In this document: positions 36,670 through 45,859 of the stretch, piece after piece
Numbering within the stretch: the stretch's first letter is position 1
Layout of the letters: the number at the start of each line of letters is the position of its first letter
From: Calidithermus chliarophilus DSM 9957
Lineage (GTDB): Bacteria > Deinococcota > Deinococci > Deinococcales > Thermaceae
Length of the DNA stretch: 64,000 nucleotides
Direction: 5' to 3'
Assembly (NCBI RefSeq): GCF_000430045.1
Contig: NZ_KE387027.1
Location: 411,901-475,900 of the forward strand
Made by a program: the position numbers and the translations under genes
The notes under the pieces: model-generated
Seen by the model: the letters and a program-made list of their open reading frames with translations, nothing else
Told to the model about the DNA's origin: nothing
The model's database searches: none

Positions 36670-37185
36670 TCACGACGCAGATTGCAGATCCCACGGGCCA
36701 ACGTACCAACGTCCGAAGATAACTATAAGAGAAACTACGAACACGAGGATGGCCGCGAGCCACCCCCATCTCAACTTCTTGTAGACCCTTGCTCCAAGCA
36801 CGGCAGGGGTCAGAAGAACCACCGCGGCTATTGCCCAGCCTAGCCCAGTTTCAACGGTTGGTGGCATTTGCCGTATCAGCCGCTCAGGGAAGCGATTGAT
36901 CCCATTGGGTAGGCCGAGCAGCAAGACGATGGCTATAGTAGCCGCGGACACGCCCCTTACAGCCACAGGGAATGACCCATGCCGTAAAAGGTCACCCCAT
37001 GCCCAGCCGCAATAGACCAGAAACGAGACAGAGAGGAGTAGATAGACATCTAAAAAGAAACTTCTGCCGACAAACGGGAAATATTCATTATAGGGAGTAA
37101 GTATCAGTACTATCAGACTCGTACTGAGAGACAATATCCCGATCATGTCGACAGCTTTGGTCAGTTGATCAACTACTGTGCGCAT
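36670..37185 (-). CDS. Duplicated four-helix membrane protein, copy 1
   Basis: A ~171-residue membrane protein with about four hydrophobic helices. The ATG at 37185 is preferred to an upstream GTG because CTGGAGGG lies 4 nt before it, and the same RBS is conserved in copy 2. Shared landmarks with copy 2 are NEYFPFVGR, YCGWAWGDLLRHGSF, and RVYKKLRWGWLAAILVFVV. Base composition is clearly lower in GC than the flanks. No family is recognised. Confidence 0.65.
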   Translation of the reverse strand: MRTVVDQLTKAVDMIGILSLSTSLIVLILTPYNEYFPFVGRSFFLDVYLLLSVSFLVYCGWAWGDLLRHGSFPVAVRGVSAATIAIVLLLGLPNGINRFPERLIRQMPPTVETGLGWAIAAVVLLTPAVLGARVYKKLRWGWLAAILVFVVSLIVIFGRWYVGPWDLQSAS

Positions 37186-37269
37186 GGAACCCTCCAGAGT
37201 TGCTGACACCTCGTTCACTAGTCGTGCATACGGCCCTCCGGGATTCCCGACGCTATAACACCGATCACC

Positions 37270-37452: not shown

Positions 37453-37959
37453 CTATTGCAGCTCCCACGGGCCAAAGTACCAAAGTCCGAAGATAGCTAC
37501 AGGAGAAACTACGAACACGAGGATGGCCGCGAGCCACCCCCATCTCAATTTCTTATAGACCCTTACTCCAAGCACAGCAGGGGTCAGAAGAACCACCGCA
37601 GTTATCACCCAGCCCAGCCCAGTTTCGGCAAATGCCGGCATTTGCCATATCAGCCGATGGGGGAAGGGGTTTATCGCGGTAGGGAGGCCGAGCAGCAAGA
37701 TGATGGCTATGATAACCGCGAACATAACCTTCAAGGCCATAGAGAATGACCCATGCCGTAACAGGTCACCCCACGCCCAGCCGCAATAGACGAGAAACGG
37801 GACAGCAAGGAATAGATAGGCGTCTGTAAAGAAAGTTCTGCCGACAAACGGGAAATACTCATTGAAGGGGATGAGTACCATCATCAACAGACTCGCGCCA
37901 AGGGATAGCGTCCCGAGTACGTCGATAACTTTGGCTGGTTGATCACCCATTATGCGCAC
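37453..37959 (-). CDS. Duplicated four-helix membrane protein, copy 2
   Basis: A ~168-residue paralogue of the protein at 36670. The GTG at 37959 follows CTGGAGGGTTCC, exactly matching the RBS-start context of copy 1 where the codon is ATG. It has the same helices and the same YCGWAWGDLLRHGSF loop. It ends FGPWELQ against VGPWDLQ in copy 1. Retention of frame in both copies despite many substitutions suggests selection, unlike the broken neighbours. Confidence 0.65.
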   Translation of the reverse strand: MRIMGDQPAKVIDVLGTLSLGASLLMMVLIPFNEYFPFVGRTFFTDAYLFLAVPFLVYCGWAWGDLLRHGSFSMALKVMFAVIIAIILLLGLPTAINPFPHRLIWQMPAFAETGLGWVITAVVLLTPAVLGVRVYKKLRWGWLAAILVFVVSPVAIFGLWYFGPWELQ

Positions 37960-38121
37960 GGAACCCTCCAGAGTCGCTGACGCCTCGTTCACCAGTCTTG
38001 CACATACGCCCCTCTGGGATTCTTGATGCTCTAATTGAGCTTCATTCTCACCTCCCCGGTCTAGGTTGCAGCCCCAGAACTACAATCGTGTGGTGCATTG
38101 GTCTCCTATAGTGCCCTTATG

Positions 38122-38782: not shown

Positions 38783-40450
38783 TTAATCCACCACCTTGAA
38801 ACCCAGCGCCTCGGCCCGCTCGACGAAGAACTGAATGTTCTCGCTCTTGGTCTCCCCGCCCAGGCTCTTGCGCTCGAAGGCCCCCTCGGCGGCGAGGATC
38901 ATGGTCTCGGCCAGGCAGGCAGGCACCGCGCCCTCGCCGAAGTGGAGGTTGAGGTTGCCGGTCATGGCGCCGGGCGGGCGCACCACCCCGCCGGGGATGA
39001 CCCGCACGCCGGGGAGCTTCTTCACGCTCTCGTGGACGTCGGGGGGAACGCCCTCGTCGTAGATCCAGGCGCCGGGTTTGACGTGCTCGGGGAAGATCAC
39101 GGCCTGGGGGTCGGAGGTGGCGCTGAAGACGAGGTCGGCCTCCTTGATGGCGGCGATGTCGGTGGTGACGACGAGATCGGGCACCTGGCCCTTGCGCTCG
39201 AGGTTCTTCCGCAGGCTCTCGGCGCTCTTCTCCAGGCGCTCCATGTTGCGCCCCACCAGGATCAGCTTCCCCACCAGCGGGGCGATCTGCCGGGCGATGC
39301 CGAAGGCCACCACGCCGTTGGCGCCCACCACCGCGGCGGTGGTCTGGCGCAGGTCGCGGCCGGTCTGGCCGAAGTGGGCGATGATGCCGGGGATGGCGGC
39401 CTTGACGGTGCCGGAGGTGTAAGCCCCGCCGTTGGTGATCTCGATCTCGGGCACGGCCTCCTGCACCCGCTTGCCCTTCTCGCCCACCACGCTCCAGAAG
39501 GCCCCCAGCCCCAGCACCGTGCAGCCGAGCTCCTTGGCCAGCCGCGCGGCCTGGATGGCCTTCTGGGTGGCGAGTTCGGGGTTGGAGGTGATCTGGTGCG
39601 GCAGCAGCGGCGCCGAGATGAGGTAGCAGCGGATCTCGCGCCCGTCGGCGGTCTTGATGCCGCGCAGCTCGCCGTTCTTCATGGGCCGGATCAGGGCGGT
39701 GAAGCGCTCGAGCAGGCTTTGCGAGACCCAGCCCCGGTCCACCAGGGGCTTGAACCAGCGGAAGCGCGGGCTCTGGAAGAGGTCGTCGAGGGTGAGGGGG
39801 TGGATCATGAAGGCGCACACCGCCTGCTTCTCCGACGGGAGGGGCAGGGGCTCGCCCAGCCTGGGTTCGGTGCCCTCGAGCATGCGCCCGATGTTCTCCT
39901 TGTAGCGCCACAGCGCCAGCCCCAGCAGCGCCAGCGCGGCCACCTTGGCCCAGGCGGCGATGCCCAGCCCCAGCACCCCCAGCGCCAGCAGCGTCACCAC
40001 GGATAACCCGGCCAGGGTCATCCAACCTGTAGCGACCAGCGCGGCGGCGGCGACGACCAGAGGGAGGGCGGTGGCCCAGTAGGGCAGCCCCGCGAAGGAC
40101 AGCCCCACCAGGATGCCCAGCAGAACGAACCCGCCGCGCCCGCGCAGCGTAGTGCCCGAGGTGAGGGCGGGCGGGGGATAGAGGTGGCCCAGGTAAGCCA
40201 GCAGGGCCAGCAGCAGGCCCCCCTCGAGCCCCCACCCCCTTCCCAGCAGCACGGCCAGCAGGCCCTTGAGGAAGTCGAGGCTCGAGGCCAGCACCAGCGG
40301 CCCCGCACCCAGTTGCTTGAGGGCGTTCTCGAGGCCCAGGTTGTAGGCCGAGGCCCAGCGCGGTTCCTGATGGCTCAGACGGCGAACGGCCCAGTACCCC
40401 AGCGGCAGCGAGCCGATGAGGTAGGCCAGGATGCCTAGCACGACGATCAC
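38783..40450 (-). CDS. Fusion of PlsY-type acyltransferase and acyl-ACP-reductase-like dehydrogenase
   Basis: A 555-residue two-part protein. The GTG at 40450 is chosen because it opens directly into the PlsY-like start (VIVVLGILAYLIGSLPLGYW); the longer frame upstream is repeat DNA. Residues ~1-200 are a polytopic membrane domain like PlsY, which makes lysophosphatidate from acyl-phosphate and glycerol 3-phosphate. Residues ~215-555 resemble cyanobacterial long-chain acyl-ACP reductase: YLISAPLLPHQ region, LGLGAFWS, NAD(P) loop VVGANGVVAFG, and Cys512 in PACLAETMIL, matching the acylated cysteine of that enzyme. The chain could channel acyl groups between glycerolipid and aldehyde. The PlsY glycerol-phosphate sites are partly altered (for example YNLGLENA), so acyltransferase activity is uncertain. 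Confidence 0.75.
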   Translation of the reverse strand: MIVVLGILAYLIGSLPLGYWAVRRLSHQEPRWASAYNLGLENALKQLGAGPLVLASSLDFLKGLLAVLLGRGWGLEGGLLLALLAYLGHLYPPPALTSGTTLRGRGGFVLLGILVGLSFAGLPYWATALPLVVAAAALVATGWMTLAGLSVVTLLALGVLGLGIAAWAKVAALALLGLALWRYKENIGRMLEGTEPRLGEPLPLPSEKQAVCAFMIHPLTLDDLFQSPRFRWFKPLVDRGWVSQSLLERFTALIRPMKNGELRGIKTADGREIRCYLISAPLLPHQITSNPELATQKAIQAARLAKELGCTVLGLGAFWSVVGEKGKRVQEAVPEIEITNGGAYTSGTVKAAIPGIIAHFGQTGRDLRQTTAAVVGANGVVAFGIARQIAPLVGKLILVGRNMERLEKSAESLRKNLERKGQVPDLVVTTDIAAIKEADLVFSATSDPQAVIFPEHVKPGAWIYDEGVPPDVHESVKKLPGVRVIPGGVVRPPGAMTGNLNLHFGEGAVPACLAETMILAAEGAFERKSLGGETKSENIQFFVERAEALGFKVVD

Positions 40451-40477: not shown

Positions 40478-40675
40478 GGTAATGCCGGGCGCTGAATGCC
40501 GGTAGCCGAACGCCCAACGCCGATAGCTGATAGCTGATAGCCGATAGCCGATAGCCAACCGCAAAACGCAAGACGCCTTGTTCCCCCTTAGCAAGGGGGG
40601 CTAGGGGGGATACCCCTCCCTGCGGGCGGGGAGGACCGGGGAGGGGCAACTGCGAGCCACAGGCCACGAGCCCCC
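40478..40675 (-). repeat. Composite heptamer repeat element, copy M (reverse)
   Basis: On the + strand: GTAGCCGAACGCCCAACGCC, GATAGCT/GATAGCC heptamers, ACGCAAAACGCAAGACGCC, CCCCCTTAGCAAGGGGGG hairpin, CCCTCCC...GCGGGGAGG block, GAGCCACAGGCCACGAG. Confidence 0.85.
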
Positions 40676-40681
40676 ATTACC

Positions 40682-41422
40682 CTAGACCCGTTCCTCGCTC
40701 CCCAACCGCTCCCTCCGCTGGCTTACCGCCCAGATCGTGCCCAGCACCAAAGCGCCCAGGATGAAGAAGGAGAATTGGGTCTTGTCGATGCCGCTGACGA
40801 GTTCGGGGCGGCTGAGCACCTCCTTGGCGAACTTGTCCCAGCCGCCGAGGGCCAGCTTGGCCCCGGCCAGGGCCACGATGGCGTAGGCCACCGCCTCGAA
40901 GCGGGGGAAGCGCTCGAGCAGCCCCACGAAGACCCCGGCCACGAAGCGCAGGGCCAGGATGCCCACGAAGACCCCGGTGAAGATGATCGCCATGTTGTCG
41001 GAGAGGGCCACTGCCACCAGCACCGAGTCCACGGCGAAGGCCAGGTCGGCCAGCTCGATCTGGGCCACGATGGTCCAGAACTGGCGGGGGGTGACGCTCT
41101 TGAGCACCCCGCCGGCGGTGAGCTCCTCGGGGGCGTGGGCGGGCCTGGCCTTTTTGCCGAAGAAGTGCTTGAAGGCGATGTAGAGCAAATAGACCGCGCC
41201 CAGCGCCTGCACCCACCAGAACTCGATGAGCAGCGCGGCGAAGACCAACGCCAGCCCGCGCAGCACGTAGGCCCCGGCGATGCCGTAGAACAGGGCCCGC
41301 TGCCGCCAGGGCGGGGGCAGCTTGCGCACCATGACCCCCAGCACCATGGCGTTGTCGGCCGAGAGGATGGCCTCGAGCACGATCAGGATGCCGATTACCG
41401 TCAGCGCTTGTCCGATTTCCAC
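40682..41422 (-). CDS. terC: TerC-family membrane protein, second copy
   Basis: A 246-residue membrane protein with about seven helices. TerC signatures are EAILSADNAMVLGVMV near the N terminus and LAFAVDSVLVAVAL in the middle; both carry conserved Asp residues of the metal site. Current knowledge links TerC/YkoY proteins to manganese export or metal loading at the Sec machinery, and others to tellurite resistance. The GTG start has RBS GGGAGGT at 7 nt. It is preceded by a hairpin cluster and the paralogous gene. Confidence 0.85.
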   Translation of the reverse strand: MEIGQALTVIGILIVLEAILSADNAMVLGVMVRKLPPPWRQRALFYGIAGAYVLRGLALVFAALLIEFWWVQALGAVYLLYIAFKHFFGKKARPAHAPEELTAGGVLKSVTPRQFWTIVAQIELADLAFAVDSVLVAVALSDNMAIIFTGVFVGILALRFVAGVFVGLLERFPRFEAVAYAIVALAGAKLALGGWDKFAKEVLSRPELVSGIDKTQFSFFILGALVLGTIWAVSQRRERLGSEERV

Positions 41423-41506: not shown

Positions 41507-42223
41507 TCAGGTGCTGCTGGGGGAGCGGTCGCTCGAGCGCAGCGCCCACAGCGTGCCCACCACCAGGATCAGCAGCGTGACGCCCAGGAACAGCTCCTTG
41601 GGCAGGTGCAGGGCCAGGGCCTCGTTGTGCAGCCACACCTCAGCGCCCAGGTTCCAGCCCTCGAGGGTGAGCTTGAGCCCGGCCCAGCCCACCACCGCGT
41701 AGGCGACCTGCTCGAGGCGGGGGTAGTTCTCCATCACCCGCACCATCCAGCCCGCGGCCAGCCGGATCAGCAGGATGCCGATGGCGACGCCGGTAAAGAT
41801 CACCCAGAACACCTTGCTGAAGGCCACCACCACCAGCACCGAGTCGATGGCGAAGGCCAGGTCCACGACGTTGACCATCACCACGATGCGCCAGAAGGAC
41901 TGCTGGACGGAGGCCTTGACTTCCTCCTCGGGGGACCGGATCTCGTCGGACTGGCGGCTCAGGAAGAACTTCACCGCGAGGTAGATCAGGTAGACGCCGC
42001 CGAGCACCTGGATCCACCAGATGTTGATGATCACCGTGGCGAACAGCAGGGCCAGACCGCGCAGCACGTAGGCCCCGATAATGCCGTACAGCAGTGCCTT
42101 CTTGCGCAATTCAGGGGGCAGCGGCTTGACCATCACCGCCAGCACCATGGCGTTGTCGACGGAGAGAATCGCCTCGAGGGCGACGATGATAACGATCGCG
42201 AGGATAGCTTCGGCAAGTCCCAT
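41507..42223 (-). CDS. terC: TerC-family membrane protein, first copy
   Basis: A 238-residue membrane protein from ATG 42223 (MGLAEAILAIV). It has the same two motifs as its neighbour: EAILSVDNAMVLAVMV and LAFAIDSVLVVVAF. It differs in its cytoplasmic loop (LSRQSDEIRSPEEEVKAS). The tandem pair may form a heteromer or serve two metals. I looked for the yybP-ykoY manganese riboswitch upstream and could not find its conserved core. Confidence 0.85.
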   Translation of the reverse strand: MGLAEAILAIVIIVALEAILSVDNAMVLAVMVKPLPPELRKKALLYGIIGAYVLRGLALLFATVIINIWWIQVLGGVYLIYLAVKFFLSRQSDEIRSPEEEVKASVQQSFWRIVVMVNVVDLAFAIDSVLVVVAFSKVFWVIFTGVAIGILLIRLAAGWMVRVMENYPRLEQVAYAVVGWAGLKLTLEGWNLGAEVWLHNEALALHLPKELFLGVTLLILVVGTLWALRSSDRSPSST

Positions 42224-42374
42224 CCGTACCAGGGTAGCCCCAAACCCCGCGGCGCACCGCGAGCTACGCCCTGGTGACGCCAAGGCGAAAATCTGCTACA
42301 GTGGTAACCGCGCTTAAAAAAACGGCGAGTGGGGGCGAACCGCGTTTTGCTGTCCCAGACGGCTTTTTGCTGCT

Positions 42375-43343: not shown

Positions 43344-43439
43344 ACGGGGATAGCTTAACGCTCCTGCTGTGTCTTCCGTGGGGAGGGGTTGGTTTGTGGT
43401 GCTTTGGTTTGGTGTCCCCCGCTCCGCCGTCAGGGGCCG

Positions 43440-43650
43440 GAGGGGGAGGCCATTCCACGTGGCGGGGGCATCGCGGTACGCGACCCGGCATACGCCGGAA
43501 ACCTGCTCCCCCTCTCACCCTCCGAGGGACTCCAGGTTACCGGCAGAGCCGGTATGGCCTACGGCCACCCCCTCGCGGACATGCCGCCGGGTCAAGGTGC
43601 GGCCCGCACCCCCGCACACGCGGGCACTGAGGCCCGGCGGCATGCCCGTC
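43440..43650. ncRNA. Run of tightly packed hairpins, candidate structured RNA or palindromic element
   Basis: This lies inside a 507-bp gene-free gap (43344-43850). Successive perfect stems are: TCGCG/CGCGA (43471-43483); CCGGC/GCCGG (43485-43498); AACCTG/CAGGTT closing 43500-43538; ACCGGC-AGA-GCCGGT (43539-43553); TGGCC-TAC-GGCCA (43555-43567); and CATGCCGCCGGG with CCCGGCGGCATG (43580-43591 and 43633-43644). The last stem encloses two adjacent hairpins (GGTGCGG/CCGCACC and CCCGC-ACAC-GCGGG). Spacing between stems is 0-2 nt for most. No RBS-led ORF is convincing. It does not match tmRNA, RNase P, SRP or 6S RNA landmarks that I know. Confidence 0.45.
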
Positions 43651-43777
43651 TGCGCCACCCCGCCCACCCCCTCCCGCGTGAGCCGCACACCCCGGCCGGG
43701 GCACGGCAGCGACCACCGAGCGCCCTTCCGCGGGGAAGTGGGGCTGTAGTCGGCCTATGGGGCGGGCACATTAATCC

Positions 43778-43850
43778 CGAAGGGCGTTTGGCTATCGGCT
43801 ATCGACTATCGGCTATCGGCTATCGACTATCAGCTATCGACCATCGACCC
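43778..43850 (+). repeat. Composite heptamer repeat, copy N (GCTATCG module only)
   Basis: GGCGTTTG is followed by about eight GCTATCG/ACTATCG/GCTATCA heptamers and CGACCATCGACCCC, ending at the aldo-keto reductase stop. Confidence 0.85.

Positions 43851-45859
<2,009 letters not shown>

Follow-up and report, generated by a model that had tools for sequence, protein, structure and literature searches.

Why should a PlsY-type membrane domain and a reductase share one polypeptide, and what becomes of the reductase product? This question is raised by a gene in a 64,000-nucleotide stretch of the Calidithermus chliarophilus DSM 9957 genome, referred to here as the window. An earlier note, made from the letters of the window, had placed the gene at positions 38783-40450 and read it as a single chain of PlsY and reductase parts. 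Both the coordinates and the single-chain reading are borne out, the latter by Pfam, NCBIfam and PDB matches and by fold matches of an AlphaFold model; the gene lies on the minus strand. We propose the fusion as a good candidate for the enzyme at the start of fatty-amine chain formation in the signature lipid of the phylum Deinococcota. Its features are collected in Table 1.

Table 1. Coordinates in the window of the PlsY-reductase fusion gene, its domains and its principal residues.
Feature	Position	Strand	Basis
PlsY-reductase fusion gene, 555 aa + stop	38783..40450	minus	Open frame; fusion in five families
PlsY-type membrane domain, residues 8-190	39881..40429	minus	PF02660 E 1.5e-23; PDB 5xj5; TM 0.83 to 5xj7
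Acyl-thioester-reductase-type domain, residues 207-555	38786..39832	minus	NCBIfam PigE and AAR; PDB 6jzu, 4ppm; TM 0.78
Glu41, aaPlsY Thr41 position (acyl-phosphate carbonyl contact)	40328..40330	minus	Glu in 56/57 fusions
His89, aaPlsY His92 position (acyl-phosphate contact)	40184..40186	minus	Invariant, 57/57
RGRGG (103-107), aaPlsY Lys104 phosphate loop	40130..40144	minus	Lys104 = Arg/Lys; Gly105 invariant
NAD(P)-binding loop GANGVVAFG (376-384)	39299..39325	minus	Aligns with AAR GATGDIG loop
Cys512, presumed catalytic	38915..38917	minus	Invariant, 26/26; aligns with AAR C294 and PigE C296

The fusion gene, its surroundings and its distribution

The open frame begins with a GTG codon at 40450 and encodes 555 residues. 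Starting instead from a TTG codon at 40594 would lengthen the protein by 48 repeat-like residues that have no counterpart in relatives. The frame reaches this TTG codon through short imperfect repeats at 40484-40580, upstream of the gene, and a similar peptide (YRLSAIGYRLSAI) occurs in the open frame at 43389-43946.

Among 111 Deinococcota genomes, the reductase domain is present in 107 (84 of the 85 good ones), essentially as a single copy. All 20 loci picked from five families via the reductase domain alone run on into a PlsY domain. Likewise, each of 26 aligned fusion proteins, with identities to the query down to 39%, matches both Pfam families. The fusion is therefore neither an assembly error nor a chance read-through, and it appears to have been fixed early in the phylum. 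The genus Deinococcus lies outside the direct coverage of the 111-genome sample. Deinobacterium chartae, used as a named control, gave a match to the AAR model TIGR04058 under the cut-off, which is only suggestive because Methanocaldococcus also matches under the cut-off. A scan of genome contigs with one fusion sequence as query recovered close Thermaceae relatives only, and the PlsY fusion was not found among plasmid relatives of the reductase outside the phylum.

Gene neighbourhood was dropped as a guide to function since it differs by family and no lipid genes were found at the loci examined. In Thermus and family f4 the neighbours, named by sequence reading, are mqnB and translation genes; in family f5 they are a gene for a DnaB-like helicase together with prmA- and rsmE-like genes. 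In the window, two adjacent, seemingly paralogous frames resembling TerC-family membrane proteins (40682-41422 and 41507-42283, minus strand) lie directly upstream of the fusion gene; this pair is only partly common to Thermus and Meiothermus loci. A further tandem of similar membrane-protein frames, of 182 and 179 residues, is found at 36670-37218 and 37453-37992 (minus strand), and its 84% DNA identity over 300 nt suggests a recent duplication.

Class and fold of the reductase domain

The earlier note had likened the reductase part to cyanobacterial fatty-aldehyde-forming enzymes, as opposed to shikimate or glutamyl-tRNA reductases. Domain searches with the C-terminal part return the acyl reductases PigE and AAR as best matches in both NCBIfam and the PDB. 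The NCBIfam PigE model covers residues 261-552 of the fusion (E 5e-29) and the AAR model residues 265-533 (E 9e-17); by sequence, the nearest PDB entries are AAR 6jzu (E 5e-15) and PigE 4ppm (E 5e-11). The equivalog cut-offs of both models are missed, with 101 versus 850 bits for PigE (NF053554), the chain being without the aminotransferase domain, and 61.3 versus 449.7 bits for AAR. With a score under the TIGR04058 cut-off, the fusion is not classed by sequence as an AAR itself.

The cysteine and NAD(P) loop to which the earlier note had pointed align as claimed with C294 and the GATGDIG loop of AAR. Cys512 stands within VPACLAETM, and the catalytic column reads VPACLAET in the fusion, LNGCMAET in PigE and MFACFAEA in AAR; aminotransferase-fused reductases have LNACLAET, LNGCLAET or AFACIAET. 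Cys294 of AAR holds the acyl chain, which is then reduced with NADPH (PMC7089970).

An AlphaFold model of the fusion, built with 26 natural sequences in the alignment, has a pLDDT of 90.8 and a pTM of 0.88. Its first Foldseek match is AAR 6jzu (E 3e-19, TM 0.78, 24% identity) over the full AAR length. Other top matches are the TAD domain of carmabin and PlsY, the latter over its whole length with a TM of up to 0.83. Glutamyl-tRNA reductase (GluTR) and shikimate enzymes match the model through the Rossmann part only. A profile of the 26 C-terminal domains gives 109, 89 and 83 bits for three aminotransferase-fused reductases, 72 for AAR and 66 for PigE; in the organism's own genome, the same profile gives GluTR only 9.7 bits and shikimate dehydrogenase (AroE) no score. 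The grouping with shikimate or glutamyl-tRNA reductases is thus absent, and the sequence matches and modelled fold place the C-terminal domain with the acyl reductases. The reductase-domain tree has very long branches and no resolved deep order among AAR, the PigE-type enzymes and the fusion family. Homology, invariant residues and fold together suggest that the C-terminal domain forms an aldehyde.

A proposed route to the alkylamine lipid

The lipids of the phylum suggest a use for such an aldehyde. In Thermus and Meiothermus, the major phospholipid is the phosphoglycolipid 2'-O-(diacylglycero-phospho)-3'-O-(GlcNAc)-N-glyceroyl alkylamine. Together with a related Deinococcus lipid, it has been described as a chemical marker that identifies the lineage unambiguously (PMC3035268). 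Its behaviour on TLC makes it likely to occur also in Oceanithermus, Vulcanithermus and Rhabdothermus (PMC3111992). The alkylamine chain of T. thermophilus is iso-C17 (PMC3398001). As of 2022, the enzymes responsible for forming the third chain and for replacing the polar head were stated to be unidentified (PMC9636437), and our literature search, in which few subscription journals were covered, found no known biosynthetic gene for the alkylamine chain. The lipid reports thus far named cover Thermus, Meiothermus, Deinococcus, Oceanithermus, Vulcanithermus and Rhabdothermus; the gene occurs in Trueperaceae-like families as well. The iso-C17 length is also found among T. thermophilus fatty acids, and a related lipid was reportedly described from Deinococcus radiodurans in 1985.

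Pairing a reductase of this type with a class III aminotransferase is a known route to fatty amines, as seen in PigE, PtTamH and plasmid-encoded fusions. PigE reportedly reduces a thioester and transaminates the aldehyde so formed (PMC8341465), and PtTamH converts acyl-ACP through an aldehyde to a fatty amine (PMC9594044). Each of the six plasmid relatives of the reductase found outside the phylum overlaps a class III aminotransferase gene; the three that were inspected carry both domains in one chain. On plasmids of Methylocystis iwaonis and a Thioclava sp., the surroundings of the reductase-aminotransferase gene resemble a prodigiosin-type cluster; they include genes of PEP/pyruvate-binding, AMP-binding, methyltransferase, ACP and class I/II aminotransferase type.

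We propose, with a probability of about 0.6, that the reductase makes a long-chain aldehyde from which the alkylamine part of the N-glyceroyl-alkylamine phosphoglycolipid is derived. A long-chain acyl thioester, either acyl-ACP or acyl-CoA, would load Cys512 and be reduced to a fatty aldehyde at the expense of NAD(P)H, while the PlsY-type domain would anchor the reductase in the membrane. Family patterns suggest that a separate class III aminotransferase would then convert the aldehyde to a long-chain alkylamine, which would be joined to glyceric acid by an amide bond and also phosphatidylated and glycosylated, yielding the final lipid.

Candidates for this aminotransferase were sought by likeness to PigE. 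In the organism's own genome, the highest score against the PigE aminotransferase is that of G000:C3:2718282-2719559 (type A), at 419 bits; the next protein reaches 272. Type A orthologues occur in 59 genomes, all within families f1 and f4, and were not found in f2, f3 or f5 at E 1e-90. A single orthologous aminotransferase serving the entire phylum was accordingly rejected, and the search moved to a second type (type B; e.g. G083:C1:3445184-3446650), present in 35 genomes, all of f2, f3 and f5, and having PigE as its best NCBIfam model. Both types obtain high PigE-model scores, and they never co-occur. One of them is found in 94 of the 111 genomes and neither in 17, some of which are incomplete or masked. 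When 90 class III aminotransferases from 18 genomes were placed in a tree with three reductase-fused ones, types A, B and the reductase-fused enzymes formed one clade (UFBoot 96) with weak internal order; A and B could simply be orthologues that have diverged. Type A would act in Thermaceae and Marinithermaceae-like families and type B in the other sampled families. Class III aminotransferases are hard to assign, and the role of type A is tentative, as it resembles putrescine aminotransferase too. At the loci examined, there is no genomic linkage between the fusion gene and either type. Apparent type B fusions of about 2000 aa in three genomes (G086, G090, G110) were rejected as artefacts, their inserts being N runs of about 5 kb (L236:9502-14501, L237:3634-8733 and L238:9002-14001); masked sequence can thus mimic a fusion. 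Together, the fusion and the two aminotransferase types provide named targets for the third chain of the phylum's signature lipid.

Other fates of the aldehyde were weighed against this proposal. Long-chain 1,2-diols, which replace acylglycerol in Thermus glycolipids, had been put forward in the earlier note as a Thermaceae product; they occur in Thermus and Meiothermus, where the fusion gene is always present, but are minor in the latter (PMC3398001, PMC3035268). The presence of the gene in nearly all sampled Deinococcota (the 107 of 111 genomes above) disfavours this role, and a function confined to Thermaceae is argued against by a fusion that spans the phylum. In addition, the closest tested relatives, PigE and TamH, hand their aldehyde to aminotransferases, and we know of no diol report for some of the families that carry the gene. 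We consider the diol route quite unlikely; use in the alkylamine, which the earlier note had not raised, fits the phylum-wide distribution better. Conversion to alkanes, also suggested earlier, draws on the fact that, among enzymes of solved structure, AAR is nearest in both sequence and fold. It is highly improbable and is ruled against by the cyanobacterial aldehyde-deformylating oxygenase (ADO; PF11266), which is found in none of the 111 genomes and is detected in the control, Synechococcus elongatus. A reductase does not by itself set the fate of its aldehyde, which might be reduced further, to a fatty alcohol destined for ether or wax-type lipids, or have another use. Such uses give the aminotransferase pattern no role and seem unlikely; to our knowledge, fatty-alcohol ether or wax-type lipids are not general features of the phylum, nor do we know of plasmalogens in it.

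The PlsY-type domain and comparison with known systems

While the alkylamine pathway accounts for the reductase, it leaves the PlsY-type domain unexplained, and this counts against the alkylamine reading. Residues 8-190 match PF02660 with 84.1 bits, over the gathering cut-off of 24.1, and the equivalog model for G3P acyltransferase (TIGR00023) is missed with 54.5 versus 137.2 bits. Pocket residues, numbered after aaPlsY (PMC5700162), were counted in 57 distinct fusions chosen as full-length alignments, so that the counts reflect residue conservation and not fusion frequency. The acyl-phosphate contacts His92 and Gly105 are kept in all 57, as is a basic residue at position 104 (Arg in 44, Lys in 13); position 45 is Arg or Lys in 50 and Asn180 is kept in 49. 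The contact residue Thr41 is replaced by Glu in 56, and the G3P pocket is mostly lost, with Ser35 in 3, Ser142 in 6 and His177 in 5 of the 57. Mutants of aaPlsY at Ser35, Thr41, Ser142 and His177 lose most activity (PMC5700162). The genome also encodes PlsX and a separate PlsY with every canonical residue. Two more PlsY-family proteins of the genome (G000:C7:98051-98566 and G000:C3:2809626-2810102) are without the SGN and HxEN motifs, which brings the PlsY-type proteins to five, at most two of them canonical-looking.

These residues bear on the view, taken in the earlier note, that the chain contains an ordinary acyltransferase. A working G3P acyltransferase, its reductase domain recycling or sensing acyl chains for phospholipid synthesis, would accord with the PF02660 score, His92, Gly105 and a phosphate clamp (45/104/180) that is mostly compatible. 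Against it stand the four positions changed in most or all of the 57 fusions, the missed TIGR00023 cut-off and the canonical PlsY elsewhere in the genome; we judge it quite improbable. Given the remodelled acceptor site and the separate PlsY, the domain is unlikely, by its sequence, to be an ordinary G3P acyltransferase. It may anchor the protein, act as a site of acyl-phosphate loading or form an amide by acyl transfer. It is possible, though doubtful, that the domain retains acyl-phosphate chemistry with a new acceptor, Cys512 or the alkylamine. In one form of this idea, the acyl group of PlsX-made acyl-phosphate would pass to Cys512, making the chain a membrane-embedded acyl-phosphate reductase. 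In another, Glu41 would act as a base while a glyceroyl-phosphate, for example 1,3-bisphosphoglycerate, acylates the alkylamine, yielding the glyceroyl amide. If true, retained PlsY chemistry would put two steps of the alkylamine lipid in one chain. We know of no earlier case of a PlsY-type domain fused to a reductase with a rebuilt acceptor site.

Compared with known systems, the proposed alkylamine route is similar in logic to GluTR and GSA aminomutase, in which a cysteine thioester yields an aldehyde that passes to a class III PLP enzyme (PMC8341465); the likeness in structure is restricted to the Rossmann part, in line with the low profile score of the organism's own GluTR (9.7 bits). The PlsY enzymes (PF02660, PDB 5xj5-5xj9) share with the fusion the fold (TM 0.83), His92, Gly105 and a basic residue at 104, whereas in most copies of the fusion Ser35, Thr41, Ser142 and His177 have given way to other residues, with a near-invariant Glu at position 41, and a reductase is attached. 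Cyanobacterial AAR (PDB 6jzu) resembles the reductase over the whole domain (TM 0.78, 24% identity), including an equivalent of Cys294, but is a stand-alone soluble enzyme that works with ADO, a partner absent from the Deinococcota sample. The related plasmid reductase-aminotransferases have about a quarter identity to the fusion. PigE of prodigiosin and PtTamH of tambjamine biosynthesis share with it the reductase type, the CLAET-like cysteine motif and the NAD(P) loop; they differ in being fused to an aminotransferase rather than to PlsY and in serving secondary-metabolite pathways.
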